This document shows, piece by piece, positions 14,846-26,149 of a DNA stretch of 43,712 nt; position 1 is the stretch's first letter; every line of letters begins with the position of its first letter. The notes beneath the pieces were generated by a model that saw nothing but the letters and a program-made list of their open reading frames with translations, was not told the DNA's origin and did no database searches. Both the position numbers and the translations under genes were made by a program. Source of the stretch: Methanobacteriota archaeon (GTDB taxonomy: Archaea; Thermoplasmatota; Poseidoniia; Poseidoniales; Poseidoniaceae); contig PAZU01000045.1 in NCBI GenBank assembly GCA_002715725.1, forward strand, positions 1 to 43,712, given 5' to 3'.

Positions 14846-15925
14846 ATGGTACATATTACACACAGAATTCGCTATCCTCCATTCGAATCAGGAAAACTAA
14901 ATGCAGAGCAAATTCCTGTTGTGGAATATTCCTTTGAAATCGATGGCCCTGTAATCCCTCCATTCAAACTTGGAAAAACCAATTCTTGGCATGTAGAGAG
15001 AGTCATCGAAGGAAATTATGAAACCGATAGTAAATACCACGGCAAGGTTCCACAAATAATCGAAAAACAGAGGACTGGGTGGTATTTATTACCACATCCG
15101 ATTCATGCAAAGGCTCGTAAATTCATCAATTTTGTTGTTGTAGTGTTATTGGCATGCCTATTCTATTTATTTTCAACTCCATTACAAACCTCTCTTGGAA
15201 TTCCTACTTTTGGAACAGGAAAAGTTCGTCTTGGGCTGCTTGATTATCCACTACTAGCAGTGATTATTGTACCGTTAATGCTAATTCCAATAGCGCTCAG
15301 AGTTGCTGCAAATTTGGGTGATTTACGGAGGCAGAATTTTTTCTTACTCAATTCGCCACCTAGGCCAGAAATTAATTTTGAAGAAACCGAAACTGGCTCA
15401 AATCTCAAAGGAAAAATAAAATTTCTAGATTCTCGAGAAGATTGGAAGAGGATGAAATTATCATGGCGAGTTGGTATTCTCCCACCTGCTAGACACAAAG
15501 TCTTCGCAGCTCTAAATCGTGATCCTTCAGGACAACCGCCTCCAGGCCTCACAACACCTTTACCGCATCATTGGGAGAAAGGGCTAGATGATGGTACTGG
15601 CATGGGGGAAGATGCTCCTATGGAACGACATGATGTTCCCGGAGGTGTGTTCTTGCGCCCGATGCGAATCATGAGTTCTAGTGAATCTGTAAATATTGAA
15701 CTCGAAGGTGGAGAGTTTGAATTACAAAACCCTCCGGGTGAGTGGCCTGGAACAGTATACGGAGGGCTTGTTCGAGTCCATTGGGAGTTGCTCATCCACA
15801 TCGAAAGGGAAAGTGGTGGTCCATTACTTTGGGTCGAACCATTAACAGTCCTACACGGTGAAGATGAAATAGTCAATGAGAATATTACAATCTCGGATGG
15901 TCGTTCTGAAAGTGATGCATTATAG
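14846..15925 (+). CDS. Hypothetical membrane protein (2 TM segments)
   Basis: Long ORF closely following the upstream gene; two hydrophobic segments, no recognised family. Confidence 0.65.
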   Translation: MVHITHRIRYPPFESGKLNAEQIPVVEYSFEIDGPVIPPFKLGKTNSWHVERVIEGNYETDSKYHGKVPQIIEKQRTGWYLLPHPIHAKARKFINFVVVVLLACLFYLFSTPLQTSLGIPTFGTGKVRLGLLDYPLLAVIIVPLMLIPIALRVAANLGDLRRQNFFLLNSPPRPEINFEETETGSNLKGKIKFLDSREDWKRMKLSWRVGILPPARHKVFAALNRDPSGQPPPGLTTPLPHHWEKGLDDGTGMGEDAPMERHDVPGGVFLRPMRIMSSSESVNIELEGGEFELQNPPGEWPGTVYGGLVRVHWELLIHIERESGGPLLWVEPLTVLHGEDEIVNENITISDGRSESDAL

Positions 15926-15963: not shown

Positions 15964-18957
15964 ATGGAGCGCAAAGGAGTCAGTGCTGTCTTCTTAACTC
16001 TCATCATGCTTCTATCTGGCTGCCTCGGTTCAGAAGATTCGGTTAAAGAGACTGTTGAAGATGAAGAGAAGACTGAAATTTTTGCTAATTATTCAATGTC
16101 GTTAAGTGAAAACATATTTTCTGTAGGCGATATTGTTGTAGTTGAAGGCATAGTTGAAATTAATCAAAACAATGCTGAATATTTCTTCGAGTACGATATA
16201 ATTACACCTAGTGGCATAAGACCTGTTGATGTAACTCTTAGCGAATTCGATTCCGGAATGAGATTAATTTTGATGCCTGATGAACCTGGTGAATGGAAAA
16301 TTGTAGGACGTCTAATTGTATCAGGAATAAATGACTCATTGAAGAGTGATGTGGACTTCGAAGTCCTTCCGCCAAACGAAGGTGAAACTATACTGTCTGT
16401 TGATTCAATAATCGAAATGGAGAGTTCTGCACCGCTTTCAATAAGCGGCAAAGTAATTCATTCAAATCCAACGTCTTGTACTGTTTCTGATGGTTCAAAT
16501 TCACAGTCTGCTAATAATGCAGGAGAATTTAATCTAGGCCAGGGAGTTGTTGAAGAATCTTACAATATCACGATTACAGCTGTATGTGGAATCTGGACTG
16601 AAAGCCAGGATTCAAGAACAGTACGAATCATATTATCTGCAGGAAATGACATGGACGGGGATGGCATTCCTGATGATTCTGATGCCTGCCCAAATGGATA
16701 TGGAGAAGATGATGGCTGGAATCCAAACCCAACTACAGATCGAGATGGTGATGGTTGTCATGATTTTGAAGAGGACATTGATGATGACAATGATATGATT
16801 CCTGATATTGATGACCAATGTGCTTCAGAAATCGGTTGGGTCAGTACTGAAATGAATGATTATGACAGAGATGGATGTGCTGATTCTACAGAAGATTCAG
16901 ATGACGATAACGACGATATTTATGATGAATATGATTCCTGCCCTACAGGTCAAATAGGTTGGGAATCAAAACCTTACACCGACTGGGACGGTGACGGATG
17001 TAACGACTTCAGTGAAGACCAGGATGATGATAATGACCAGGTAAACGACACAGTCGATGACTGTTGGAGAGGTTTGTCGAATTGGGTTAGTAACGATGAA
17101 TTCGATTATGATGGTGATGGTTGTAACGACCTAAGCGAAGATGATGACGACGACAATGATGGGGTTAACGATGTCAATCTAACCGGTGTAACATTAGATG
17201 AGTGTCCTCGAACACCTTTGGATGCCCAAGATGTTGACGAGAGAGGTTGTGATGCAACAGAGAGAGATACCGACAATGATGGTGTAATGGACTCTGATGA
17301 CTCCTGTCCAGGAACACCATTAGGAAATGTAGTAAATTCCGTTGGCTGTGCAGACCTAGACGGAGATGGAGTGTTTTCAAATGTTGACGATTGTGCTAAT
17401 ACTCAGGCTAAATGGACTCCAGATGCATTAGGATGTGCAGTCTACCAACTCCCGGTAGCGTGGAAAGAAAGTGGCCATGGTAATGCAAGAATGGATACAG
17501 TGGCTCATTTCTCAGTCCCGACCTTAGATGGGACATGGTCGTTTAGGAATGAATGGAATGGTGAAGATGTTTACATCTTCCTGTTTAAATACACAGATTC
17601 ATCTGGAAATGGAAACAATGCTGATTGGTCCAAGAACCCTGGATCTATGATTCGTCAATTACCAGATAATGCACACTTGTTCTACGGTTCGTTTGATAAT
17701 TCATACAATAATGATGTAAAAGCAAGAAAGACTGCTGTGCAAAATGCATTAAACGCTGATGAGGAGTTGAAGTGGAAGGATAGAATCCATTACATTGACC
17801 AAGATATGTCAACAGCCAGTGGTGGATTGGGAGATTTAATCAGCAATTGGAATTCACTGTATTACGGAATAGACAGATTCCAGCGTGCACGTGAAATCGG
17901 TTCGATTTATGCTTGGACATCACAAACTAATGATATCATTCACTGGGCATATGAAGCTCGAATGTATAACTATGAATTCCCAACAGAAGTAAGAGAAACT
18001 GACCCAAATGTGCATTCTGTAACTGTCGTAGATGAATTGTGGCATAGCGGGGGTTGGAGTGGAGGATATACTTCTACTTACGAAAATGTTAGCATCAATT
18101 TGCCTAACAACATAACATCTTATGACACACTAGAAGTATTCCATGAGCATGCATGTGAAGAAAGGCGAAATCGATATGCTAAGTCCGATGGTAGTTATGG
18201 TGGATGCCATGAATGGGATTATCTTGCATACATGAAAATTTGTGACCGTGATAATACCAGTAAATGTGGCACTGAATTCATGCGCTGGATAACAACATAT
18301 GGTAGAGAAGGGAGATGGCTAACCGACATTACTCCTTACCTATTCATGCTAGAAGAAAATGATGTTCGCACATTCAAGTATCAAGGTGCAAACAAAGGAA
18401 CGATGACTGTCAAATTATTGTTTTCTGACTGGGGCATTGGTGAAAGAAGTACTAGCGGTGAGCAAGTGTTTACAGGAGGTCAATTCCGTGGCGAATACAA
18501 TAATGAATCACAGTATAAGAGACAACATAATTTCAGTACACTTGCCGATTACCATAGTGTGAAAATTGTTGCTACAATTACCGGTCACGGTTTCAATCAA
18601 GACCAGGCCAATTGTGCTGAATTCTGCGACCACGAGCATCACTACTATCTCAATGGTAATACTGCATATGAATGGCATCCTATCGTTTCCGATAGCCAAG
18701 GTTGTGAGAAAGAAGTAGATAGAGGAGTGGTAGCAAATCAGTATGGTTCTTGGCCATATGGCCGAGCTGGTTGGTGTGCTGGACAGGATGTCAAACAATG
18801 GACATATGACATAACTGACTGGGTAGATAATTCAACTACGAACAATTTGCGCTACAAAGGCCTATTCAATGGACAGGAGTATGTTCCACAAGATACCAAT
18901 GGCGGTGGAAGAGAAATCAGAGCTAACATCTGGTTAGTCTGGTACGATCAGAACTGA
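15964..18957 (+). CDS. Lipoprotein with TSP3-like Asp-rich repeats and C-terminal PNGase F-like amidase domain
   Basis: Lipobox LLSGC; repeats (DxDGDGxxD) at about 16648-17448; C-terminal GGCHEWDYLAYMKICD, NCAEFCDHEHHYYLN, YGRAGWCAGQDV match the PNGase F core. ATG at 15964 chosen over the upstream non-ATG start at 15940. Confidence 0.85.
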   Translation: MERKGVSAVFLTLIMLLSGCLGSEDSVKETVEDEEKTEIFANYSMSLSENIFSVGDIVVVEGIVEINQNNAEYFFEYDIITPSGIRPVDVTLSEFDSGMRLILMPDEPGEWKIVGRLIVSGINDSLKSDVDFEVLPPNEGETILSVDSIIEMESSAPLSISGKVIHSNPTSCTVSDGSNSQSANNAGEFNLGQGVVEESYNITITAVCGIWTESQDSRTVRIILSAGNDMDGDGIPDDSDACPNGYGEDDGWNPNPTTDRDGDGCHDFEEDIDDDNDMIPDIDDQCASEIGWVSTEMNDYDRDGCADSTEDSDDDNDDIYDEYDSCPTGQIGWESKPYTDWDGDGCNDFSEDQDDDNDQVNDTVDDCWRGLSNWVSNDEFDYDGDGCNDLSEDDDDDNDGVNDVNLTGVTLDECPRTPLDAQDVDERGCDATERDTDNDGVMDSDDSCPGTPLGNVVNSVGCADLDGDGVFSNVDDCANTQAKWTPDALGCAVYQLPVAWKESGHGNARMDTVAHFSVPTLDGTWSFRNEWNGEDVYIFLFKYTDSSGNGNNADWSKNPGSMIRQLPDNAHLFYGSFDNSYNNDVKARKTAVQNALNADEELKWKDRIHYIDQDMSTASGGLGDLISNWNSLYYGIDRFQRAREIGSIYAWTSQTNDIIHWAYEARMYNYEFPTEVRETDPNVHSVTVVDELWHSGGWSGGYTSTYENVSINLPNNITSYDTLEVFHEHACEERRNRYAKSDGSYGGCHEWDYLAYMKICDRDNTSKCGTEFMRWITTYGREGRWLTDITPYLFMLEENDVRTFKYQGANKGTMTVKLLFSDWGIGERSTSGEQVFTGGQFRGEYNNESQYKRQHNFSTLADYHSVKIVATITGHGFNQDQANCAEFCDHEHHYYLNGNTAYEWHPIVSDSQGCEKEVDRGVVANQYGSWPYGRAGWCAGQDVKQWTYDITDWVDNSTTNNLRYKGLFNGQEYVPQDTNGGGREIRANIWLVWYDQN
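16648..17448 (+). repeat. Thrombospondin type-3-like Asp-rich repeat array (protein level)
   Basis: Recurring D[WYR]DGDGC.D..ED.DDDND..[YN]D..D.C units of about 40-45 aa. Confidence 0.8.
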
Positions 18958-23053: not shown

Positions 23054-26000
23054 CTACTCCTCAAATGGATTACACAACTGTCCTTGACCTGGGAAACTAT
23101 TGATGTCACGCGGGTTAGTATCCCACTTGTATTCACAGTAGTTTACGTGACCATCACCGTCGGTATCTACCATACGGTCAGCATCATCGTAAGGATCGAA
23201 ATTGAAGTAATACTCCCAACCTGTAGCCATTCCGTCATCATCATGATCTTGGTAAAAGACTTCAGGACCATCGTCCCAATCATCACCATCAGTATCGTTG
23301 CGAATCGGATTTGTTCCGTTAACAAACTCTTCGAAACTGGTGTAGTTTTCTAGATTGTCATAAAACAACTTTCCATCTGGAGTATCAGGGTCGATATGAC
23401 AATTACTCGATTGTGGATCTTCATAAGAAGGACAATATTTAGCAATCAGCCCAGTACGATTCAAACCGTCATTGTCAGGGTCTTCCATTCCATCATCAAT
23501 TCCATCACCATCAGAATCTTTCAGTGCAGGGTCCATAACACCACGGGCACCATATGCACTGTAAGTTGAATTGTCAACTAAACCTATGATTAGTGCTTCC
23601 TCAGAATACTTTACTTCCCAACCATCTGGCAACATATCACCATCAGTATCATCATTGACAGGGTTGGTATTCCATCGGTCTGGAGCTTCCGCACCATTTG
23701 CAAGAGTGTCATTATCGATATCATAGGTATCGTCTTTCATCGAACCCTCAGACGGGTCTAAGGCCCACCTAGCATAACATCCGTTACACAGAGGGTTTGC
23801 TGGAACTGGGAAATTAGTTAGATTCATTTCAAACACTTCGTACTTCTTCTCTAATATGAATCCACCAAGCCAATTCTTCCAAATGTATCCACCCTCGTCT
23901 AGTCCACACTCAATCATGGAATCACAACCAGGAGGTAGCCAAAGATCGGTAGCGACCCAGAGAGAATGAGATTTGGAATTATCTTCTACTGATTCAACCT
24001 GCATCTCCCATCCATCTAACATTCCATCAGAATCAGTATCATTGATTAGAGGGTTGGTAGGATTTTGATATGGTCTAGGGACGAAAAGAACCTCATTTCC
24101 GTCGATTAAGCCATCATTATCAGTATCCGAATTGTTGGCATGTGTTAGGAAGTTGTCCTGCCCTAGAATGACTTCCTCACCATCTTCCAATCCATCGTTG
24201 TCAGTATCGTACATGCACGGACTAGTGAAGTATTCTTCACCATACCAAGAGAAACCATTCAATGCTTCTGCTTGGTCACCTAAGCCGTCACCATCGGTAT
24301 CAGCATTGGATGCGTTTGAACCAGTGCCACACACATCATTGAATTCTTTGAAATCTGATAACCCATCTTCATCAGTATCCCACAATCCTGGATCTGATGT
24401 TACATGGGTATTCTGTACACCGCGATTGACAACAAGGATTTCCCATCCTATTACTTCAATTCCATCTTTCAATCCATCACCATCTGTATCTGGATTTAGA
24501 GGGTCAGTAGAACGTCCATCAATGATACCATCGCCATCTGAATCTCTAGCATTGTATTCCATCAAATTGGTAAACATTTCATCCAATTCAACAATCTCTA
24601 CCCACACATCGAGTCGACTCTCGATTGTATCGCCGACTTCAACGTTAATCGAGTAGACATATCCTTCGACTGGAGCAACTAGTGGAATCACTTGCTGGTT
24701 TCCACCAGAGAGTGTTATTCTTGCTCTTGCAACAGTCTGATTTGCGCTAACCCAATCATCTAATTCAACATCGATTGCAACAACTAAAGCCACATTCTCA
24801 AGTTGGTCAAATGTTACAGATCCATCTCCATCTGCATCATAACCATCTCTGTCTGAATCAATATCACCGTTCGAACCGTCACGAGGATCTAAACCGTTTG
24901 TCGCTTCCCAGCCATCTGGCATTCCATCTTCATCCGTATCTTCGTGCCAAGGGGATGTGAACTTGTCTTCACCAAATGCTAGTGCGACTTGATATTCTTC
25001 AATATTGTTCATTCCATCTTCATCCCAGTCTCCGTATCCGTCTGAATTGTTAGCGGGGTCAAGCGTTTGAGACGCTGCTGTTGCTCCAGTGCTAGGGTGC
25101 TCCAATACATTGGAAAAACAGAATTCAAATCCATCTGGCATTCCATCGCCATCAGTATCCCAATCGGATGGTCCGTTGAGTTGGCCGTCTCCATCCATAT
25201 CTTCTTTGAACCATGCTAAGCCGTGCTCTAATGCATCGGCAGCGAATGGTGCTTGACGGTTAACTGGGTCAAGCAAATCTAGGCCACAATTTTGTCCAGT
25301 TGCCATCATAACCCAAATCGTGGAATTTGAAATCTCGTGAATATCATTCAACATGTCACCATCTGAATCTGCCTTTGTAGGGTCAGTTCCGTATTCCTCT
25401 TCCTCTAGATTGAATAATTCATCATTGTCAGAATCTAGTACTTGGTCGCAAGAGTGTTCGCCTGCTGCATTTGCTAGGTCATCCCAGTTAGCTACTCCGT
25501 TTTCACCATTGAAATGGTCCTCCAAAGTTTCCTCCATCGCATCGGTTAGCTCAACACAATCCCAGTTTCCAGACAGAGGGTCGAATAATGTGTAATTTCC
25601 AGCAGGGTGGTTAACAACTTGCTTGTAGGTTACTTCCCACTTATCGTTTAATCCATCACCGTCTGTATCTGCCAATCTAGGATTTGTTCCTTCTTCAACT
25701 TCAACTGAATTGATTAGACCGTCACGGTCTGGGTCACCTTTAGGCCCGTCATCAGGGTCTGGCCAAGAATCTTCTTCCTCTTGCTCTTCAGCGCCTTCGG
25801 AAGCTGCTTCACTAGGGTCATTTTCTGCGTCGTCGGATTCACCATTGTCAAGTGGATTTAGTCCATTTTCGACTTCCCAACCATCTGACATTGTGTCTTT
25901 ATCGGTATCTGGGTCGAATGGATCAGTTCCGTATTGTGCTTCAACAGCATCGACTAATCCATCACCATCAGAGTCCATGGACTGTCCTGTATTAGATCCC

Positions 26001-26149
26001 TCTCCTATCAAATCGTCCTCGGCTGCAGGATCGAAATCACCCGCTCCTTCACTAGTTTGGAAGAATCCTGATGCTCCCACGAATAATGAACCGAAAATCA
26101 AAGTTGATACAATTGCAACGTAAGCCATTTGATTATGTGACATTGACAT
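23054..26149 (-). CDS. Giant secreted protein with TSP3-like Ca-binding repeats and an embedded barrel-sandwich-like segment
   Basis: More than 15 DTDGDGxxDGxE-type units across nearly the whole length; N-terminal TM/signal. Confidence 0.85.
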   Translation of the reverse strand: MSMSHNQMAYVAIVSTLIFGSLFVGASGFFQTSEGAGDFDPAAEDDLIGEGSNTGQSMDSDGDGLVDAVEAQYGTDPFDPDTDKDTMSDGWEVENGLNPLDNGESDDAENDPSEAASEGAEEQEEEDSWPDPDDGPKGDPDRDGLINSVEVEEGTNPRLADTDGDGLNDKWEVTYKQVVNHPAGNYTLFDPLSGNWDCVELTDAMEETLEDHFNGENGVANWDDLANAAGEHSCDQVLDSDNDELFNLEEEEYGTDPTKADSDGDMLNDIHEISNSTIWVMMATGQNCGLDLLDPVNRQAPFAADALEHGLAWFKEDMDGDGQLNGPSDWDTDGDGMPDGFEFCFSNVLEHPSTGATAASQTLDPANNSDGYGDWDEDGMNNIEEYQVALAFGEDKFTSPWHEDTDEDGMPDGWEATNGLDPRDGSNGDIDSDRDGYDADGDGSVTFDQLENVALVVAIDVELDDWVSANQTVARARITLSGGNQQVIPLVAPVEGYVYSINVEVGDTIESRLDVWVEIVELDEMFTNLMEYNARDSDGDGIIDGRSTDPLNPDTDGDGLKDGIEVIGWEILVVNRGVQNTHVTSDPGLWDTDEDGLSDFKEFNDVCGTGSNASNADTDGDGLGDQAEALNGFSWYGEEYFTSPCMYDTDNDGLEDGEEVILGQDNFLTHANNSDTDNDGLIDGNEVLFVPRPYQNPTNPLINDTDSDGMLDGWEMQVESVEDNSKSHSLWVATDLWLPPGCDSMIECGLDEGGYIWKNWLGGFILEKKYEVFEMNLTNFPVPANPLCNGCYARWALDPSEGSMKDDTYDIDNDTLANGAEAPDRWNTNPVNDDTDGDMLPDGWEVKYSEEALIIGLVDNSTYSAYGARGVMDPALKDSDGDGIDDGMEDPDNDGLNRTGLIAKYCPSYEDPQSSNCHIDPDTPDGKLFYDNLENYTSFEEFVNGTNPIRNDTDGDDWDDGPEVFYQDHDDDGMATGWEYYFNFDPYDDADRMVDTDGDGHVNYCEYKWDTNPRDINSFPGQGQLCNPFEE
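23054..26149 (-). repeat. Asp-rich (DTDGDGL.DG.E) repeat array; recurring accatc-agt/ggt-atc words on the plus strand
   Basis: Motif such as accatcagtatc / ccatcggtatc recurs throughout the CDS. Confidence 0.75.

Follow-up and report, generated by a model that had tools for sequence, protein, structure and literature searches.

A gene of Candidatus Poseidoniaceae, Marine Group IIa (MGIIa), encodes a 997-aa lipoprotein that, judging from its sequence and a predicted model, is probably a surface, lipid-anchored peptide:N-glycanase (PNGase; EC 3.5.1.52 type) that belongs to the PNGase F superfamily, in its Ngly2/PNGaseDr branch, and would unmask food glycoproteins (probability about 0.75). The window, that is, the whole stretch of 43,712 nucleotides that was analysed, is contig C45 of a 1.94 Mb genome in 57 contigs. 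A preliminary description of this DNA had proposed a PNGase F-like enzyme, and the profile match, the fold and the alignment of D752 and E886 with D60 and E206 of PNGase F bear this out, with the assignment now refined to the Ngly2/PNGaseDr type. The features of the gene are the following.

15964..18957, + strand: whole gene, 997-aa lipoprotein with a PNGase domain (open frame; Pfam PF09113, E 1.7e-20; 39-sequence alignment).
15964..16023, + strand: signal peptide with lipobox LSGC and lipidated Cys20, residues 1-20 (read from the sequence).
16081..16641, + strand: two tandem Ig-like beta-sandwich domains, residues 40-226 (AlphaFold, pLDDT 87.8; Foldseek).
16648..17436, + strand: TSP3-like Asp-rich stalk, residues 229-491 (composition, DxDxDG motifs).
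17476..18003, + strand: thioredoxin/peroxiredoxin-like (Tx) domain, predicted to be redox-dead, residues ~505-680 (model, weak sequence match).
18049..18954, + strand: PNGase double jelly-roll catalytic domain, residues 696-997 (Pfam, profile and fold comparisons).
18217..18219, + strand: catalytic Asp752 in CHEWD, equivalent to PNGase F D60 and Ngly2 D421 (alignment).
18586..18588, + strand: His875 in TGHG, equivalent to Ngly2 H546, at the position of PNGase F W191 (alignment).
18619..18621, + strand: catalytic Glu886 in CAEFC, equivalent to PNGase F E206 and Ngly2 E555 (alignment).

The lipobox proposed earlier is present as LSGC with Cys20, and is conserved in nearly all archaeal relatives of the protein. 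It is followed by the Ig-like pair, whose top Foldseek matches are Ig/titin tandems (E 6e-8), and by the stalk, in which 73 Asp and 14 Glu are found among 263 residues, with Cys at regular spacing. The TSP3-like character attributed to this stalk agrees with eight DxDxDG motifs at residues 229-464, the Pfam TSP_3 match being weak (16.8 bits against a cut-off of 25). Such a stalk is present in MGII and MGIII relatives and missing from nearly all bacterial ones; since L109 is the only bacterial Ngly2-type protein with several DxDxDG motifs, the stalk is, on the sequences compared, an archaeal elaboration. Another large protein with TSP3 repeats (1031 aa; repeats CglD-like) is encoded close to the PNGase gene, at window positions 23054-26149 on the - strand. 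Between stalk and catalytic domain lies a Tx-like domain that the preliminary description did not mention. Residues 13-182 of the model resemble peroxiredoxins (VIA-align, Z ~9), the sequence matches the Tx domain of Ngly2 weakly, and residues 495-690 contain no Cys. The PNGase domain has eight Cys, of which the pairs 731/748, 884/888 and 914/938 align with PNGase F cysteines and the pair 760/768 is additional.

Assignment of the catalytic domain is based on motifs, profiles and fold. The motifs GGCHEWDYLAYMKICD, NCAEFCDHEHHYYLN, DSQGCEKE and YGRAGWCAGQDV, reported earlier in that order, are all found so arranged in the 997-aa frame, and the positions given for the codons of D752 and E886 are exact; the PNGase F motif quoted as CDFWD, on the other hand, has to be corrected to CDEWD, as read in the 1PNF row of the alignment. 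The two PNGase F profiles of Pfam, to which the preliminary description had pointed, gave different outcomes, with a match for the C-terminal PF09113 (N-glycanase_C) at residues 845-982 (73.7 bits, or about threefold the cut-off of 25) and none at E 0.01 in the 997-aa protein for the N-terminal PF09112 (N-glycanase_N). The latter profile also misses most of the bacterial Ngly2-type relatives examined and is therefore narrow, and in the predicted model the N-terminal half of the PNGase fold is matched by structure comparison despite this miss. Chance is excluded by the N-glycanase_C score together with the occurrence of the gene as a single copy in 24 of 27 congeneric genomes. Pfam gave N-glycanase_C and the weak TSP_3 match only, with no domain of NGLY1 (transglutaminase type) or PNGase A, and NCBIfam gave TSP3 noise with no PNGase model matched.

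Structure comparison points to the same superfamily. A model of residues 495-997 was built with AlphaFold from 39 aligned sequences (mean pLDDT 87.1, pTM 0.87), and Foldseek searches with it placed zebrafish Ngly2 at the top (E 4.7e-35), followed by PNGase F (1e-16), PNGF-II and other PNGases. With VIA-align, the predicted double jelly roll superposes on PNGase F (1PGS) as had been anticipated (Z 24.5 over 280 residues), and the match to Ngly2 (9LWG) is better, with Z 36.0 over 455 residues that include both the Tx and the PNGase domains. Comparison of the archaeal sequence profile with the PDB gave 1.3e-56 for Ngly2 and 1.6e-12 for PNGase F. D752 and E886 are invariant across the 39 aligned sequences, archaeal and bacterial, and the superposition suggests that the two acids are juxtaposed in space in the model. 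The His of TGHG and the Cys of the catalytic domain are likewise invariant over the aligned MGII and MGIII rows. When PNGase F was aligned to the archaeal sequences by MAFFT, the middle third proved unreliable, and profile alignments were used instead.

Of two His residues near the active site of Ngly2, His546 is retained as H875, a His at this position being usual and the Trp of PNGase F the exception according to the authors of the PNGaseL study (PMC12381499), and His422 is replaced by Tyr753. The loop with a Trp used in glycan binding, W120 in PNGase F and W480 in Ngly2, is ~4-5 residues shorter in MGII proteins, and a nearby Trp is retained in MGIII and in PNGaseDr. Since the W480A mutation nearly abolishes Ngly2 activity (PMC12753239), this shortening may indicate that the glycan specificity of the MGII enzyme is shifted. 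Loss of the loop need not abolish activity, because in models of PNGaseDr and PNGaseL the aromatic platform comes from another loop (PMC12381499). It can be suggested only tentatively, and with more doubt than belief, that this protein is the first PNGase F superfamily member to be recognised in archaea, ancestral in Poseidoniales, with a pocket so remodelled by loss of the Trp-platform loop that it cuts N-glycans beyond the range of known PNGases, for instance marine algal or archaeal ones.

By architecture, the closest known proteins are Ngly2 and the bacterial Tx-PNGases, rather than PNGase F. Ngly2 of zebrafish is an established acid PNGase, inactivated by the D421A and E555A mutations (PMC12753239); its residues D421, E555, H546 and W480 were checked to be letters 446, 580, 571 and 505 of the PDB sequence. 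Like the archaeal protein, it has a Tx-like domain, lacking CxxC, ahead of a double jelly-roll PNGase domain (38% identity in the latter, over 263 aa), with the same two catalytic acids and a His where PNGase F has Trp191. The Ngly2 Tx domain is, however, interrupted by an inserted PA domain, whereas the archaeal Tx is contiguous in the model and has no PF02225 match; Ngly2 is further distinguished as a lysosomal, dimeric and acidic enzyme; it has His422 and Trp480 in place of Tyr753 and the shortened loop, and it lacks the lipobox, Ig-like domains and TSP3 stalk, all three of which are found in the archaeal protein. PNGaseDr of Deinococcus radiodurans (WP_010889584; PMC12381499) shows 37% identity in the PNGase domain (271 aa compared) and has a lipobox-like LSGC as well. 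It shares the catalytic motifs with the archaeal protein, as do two Chloroflexota proteins (L060, L062), but these bacterial proteins have a PA domain and no TSP3 stalk. Myxococcota and Marinimicrobia PNGases of the Ngly2 type are mostly ~530-620 aa long, the PNGase domain being preceded by 240-320 residues, and those examined gave no PA match. Their layout is the nearest to that of the archaeal head, although they too lack the stalk. In Marinimicrobia, CDDYD replaces CHEWD, and a dockerin-like motif is found in one protein (L119:5152-6888), as a PF00404 match (1.1e-8) near the N-terminus. PNGase F of Elizabethkingia (1PGS/1PNF) shares the double jelly roll, D60/E206 and disulfide Cys pairs at ~29% identity over 204 aa, but it has Trp191 instead of His and the W120 loop, and has no Tx domain, stalk or anchor.

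A scan of 84,980 genomes returned at least 276 relatives, and the 80 retained are from Myxococcota, Chloroflexota, Marinimicrobia, Bacteroidota and Poseidoniia. In the tree, the archaeal sequences form a single clade (99/96), with MGIII beside MGII, inside the Ngly2-type subfamily and separate from PNGase F. The nearest protein from a named genome, of Candidatus Poseidoniaceae archaeon ALOHA_A2.5_52 (contig A2.5-MGIIa-K1-1_15; 94% identity in the head region), is the sister of the 997-aa protein (100/90). In bacterial proteins of the Ngly2 type, a stretch of 240-320 residues commonly comes ahead of the PNGase domain. A PA domain precedes it in L060:4792-7437, L062:4795-6987 and L163:1586-3550, which are Chloroflexota proteins and D. 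radiodurans PNGaseDr. These PA-bearing proteins group with fish Ngly2, provisionally because of long branches, and it is possible that they represent the prokaryotic source or the sister of animal Ngly2. Regarding mobile elements, none of 12 pattern matches in viral contigs encodes a relative, phages gave no match, and among plasmids only D. radiodurans gave one, for the PNGase part.

Within the order, the gene has been found in 164 of 318 genomes and 14 of 22 genera, mostly as a single copy, with 139 of 170 genomes in MGIIa (family f1) and ~25 of 148 in MGIIb (family f2). It is also present in four genomes of a third family of the class, and in no further genome among 389 sampled across the phylum. 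The order FAD-oxidoreductase, orf359, PNGase, CofH-like, M24 peptidase is conserved in MGIIa and MGIIb, and from this it follows that the gene has been inherited vertically since the Poseidoniales ancestor. orf359 (window 14846-15925, + strand) encodes a likely membrane protein with no Pfam match, and is the neighbour of the PNGase gene in almost every MGII locus that has sufficient flanking sequence. That the contig might be a bacterial contaminant or a recent transfer mis-binned in an archaeal genome could have been suspected from the many bacterial relatives and from the misnaming of some public records. This idea has a negligible probability and is refuted by the conserved synteny, the same neighbourhood having been found in more than 25 MGII records of different studies, including L072 (AH-273-O19) and L085 (AG-461-G23); the archaeal clade (99/96) also stands against it. 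Three public titles conflict with the sequences they carry: 'Deltaproteobacteria AH-558-G13' (L089) has a complete MGII neighbourhood, 'Neomarinimicrobiota NP104' (L118) carries an MGIII gene, and 'Klebsiella pneumoniae ME-21oct19-254' (L065) groups among Myxococcota.

For the role of the enzyme, the preliminary description had offered two options, scavenging of eukaryotic or algal glycoproteins and processing of the archaeon's own N-glycans; the distribution of the gene favours the former over the latter. An action of the same enzyme on the N-glycoproteins of its own cell or of neighbouring archaea (remodelling, turnover or release) is conceivable, since the genus encodes an STT3/AglB-type oligosaccharyltransferase (OST) with WWDYG, and would also fit the altered glycan-platform loop and the chitobiose core that crenarchaeal N-glycans can reportedly carry (PMC8993221). 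OST, however, is found in all 22 genera and 286 of 318 genomes, well beyond the 14 genera and 164 genomes with PNGase. In a tree of OST proteins, six PNGase-lacking MGIIb genera (g13, g15, g16, g17, g21 and g22) form one clade (100/99), with the PNGase-positive g12, g14, g19 and g20 outside it and the PNGase-lacking g18 left out of the sampling, and thus a single loss explains most of the pattern. One MGIIa genus represented by one genome (g7) has no PNGase match, and other single absences may be gaps in incomplete genomes. Absence from a derived MGIIb clade that has kept OST indicates that PNGase is ancestral and dispensable for the organism's own N-glycosylation, which fits scavenging. Moreover, the Ngly2-type relatives are mostly from bacteria and aquatic animals, and no Alg14-type gene was found in 27 congeneric genomes, a weak negative as the control was detected in only 1 of 14 genomes. 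Processing of own glycans is therefore rather unlikely. As a separate observation, the OST of genome G000 (contig C17; L142:3714-13250, - strand) is a 3179-aa open frame with an STT3 domain at 403-709 and the WWDYG motif, whose C-terminal part gives carboxypeptidase-regulatory-like and weak NOMO1-like beta-sandwich matches; such giant frames (~2800-3300 aa), an archaeal OST fusion, recur across the order.

Still less probable is that the protein is a catalytically retired member, turned into a stalked glycan-binding adhesin (lectin) that aids particle attachment. In favour of this, the TSP3 and Ig-like parts resemble adhesin modules, MGII are thought to attach to particles, and one binding-Trp loop is shortened. 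A retired enzyme, however, would not be expected to keep the acids, the His of TGHG and the Cys of the catalytic domain invariant across the aligned MGII and MGIII proteins, with the acids kept in bacteria as well. The preferred reading is thus an active N-glycanase, for which unmasking of glycoproteins for digestion is the likeliest role. The lipidated Cys20 would tether the protein to the membrane, and the Ig-like pair together with the TSP3 stalk, stiffened by calcium, would project the catalytic head outward. The amide that joins Asn to the first GlcNAc would be hydrolysed by Asp752 and Glu886, leaving Asp and a freed glycan, and secreted peptidases could then digest the algal or other eukaryotic glycoprotein so unmasked. 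MGII have been described as proteolytic heterotrophs with extracellular peptidases (PMC6461757, PMC6336850). The glycan set free is probably not itself used as food, since the N-glycan exoglycosidase families GH92 and GH20 were not found in the 27 congeneric genomes searched. The genes flanking PNGase do not form a glycan-utilisation locus, which counts against the preferred reading. Glycoside hydrolases for algal oligosaccharides are restricted, as reported by Tully et al. (PMC6336850), to MGIIa and the most basal subclades of MGIIb, and the distribution of PNGase suggestively parallels theirs, the MGIIb match being by tree position and not by matched subclade names.

PNGases of this superfamily have previously been described from bacteria and aquatic animals, and none from archaea was found in the open-licence literature; the sequences were already public, and the novelty lies in their recognition, architecture and distribution. 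N-glycans are expected to protect much marine planktonic protein against proteolysis. If the proposed function is true, a core surface-tethered N-glycanase would be a concrete step in the feeding of abundant surface-ocean archaea on plankton protein. It would also extend the PNGase F superfamily to archaea, show that the Tx-PNGase arrangement known from fish Ngly2 is widespread among prokaryotes, and provide a new enzyme for the release of unusual marine N-glycans.
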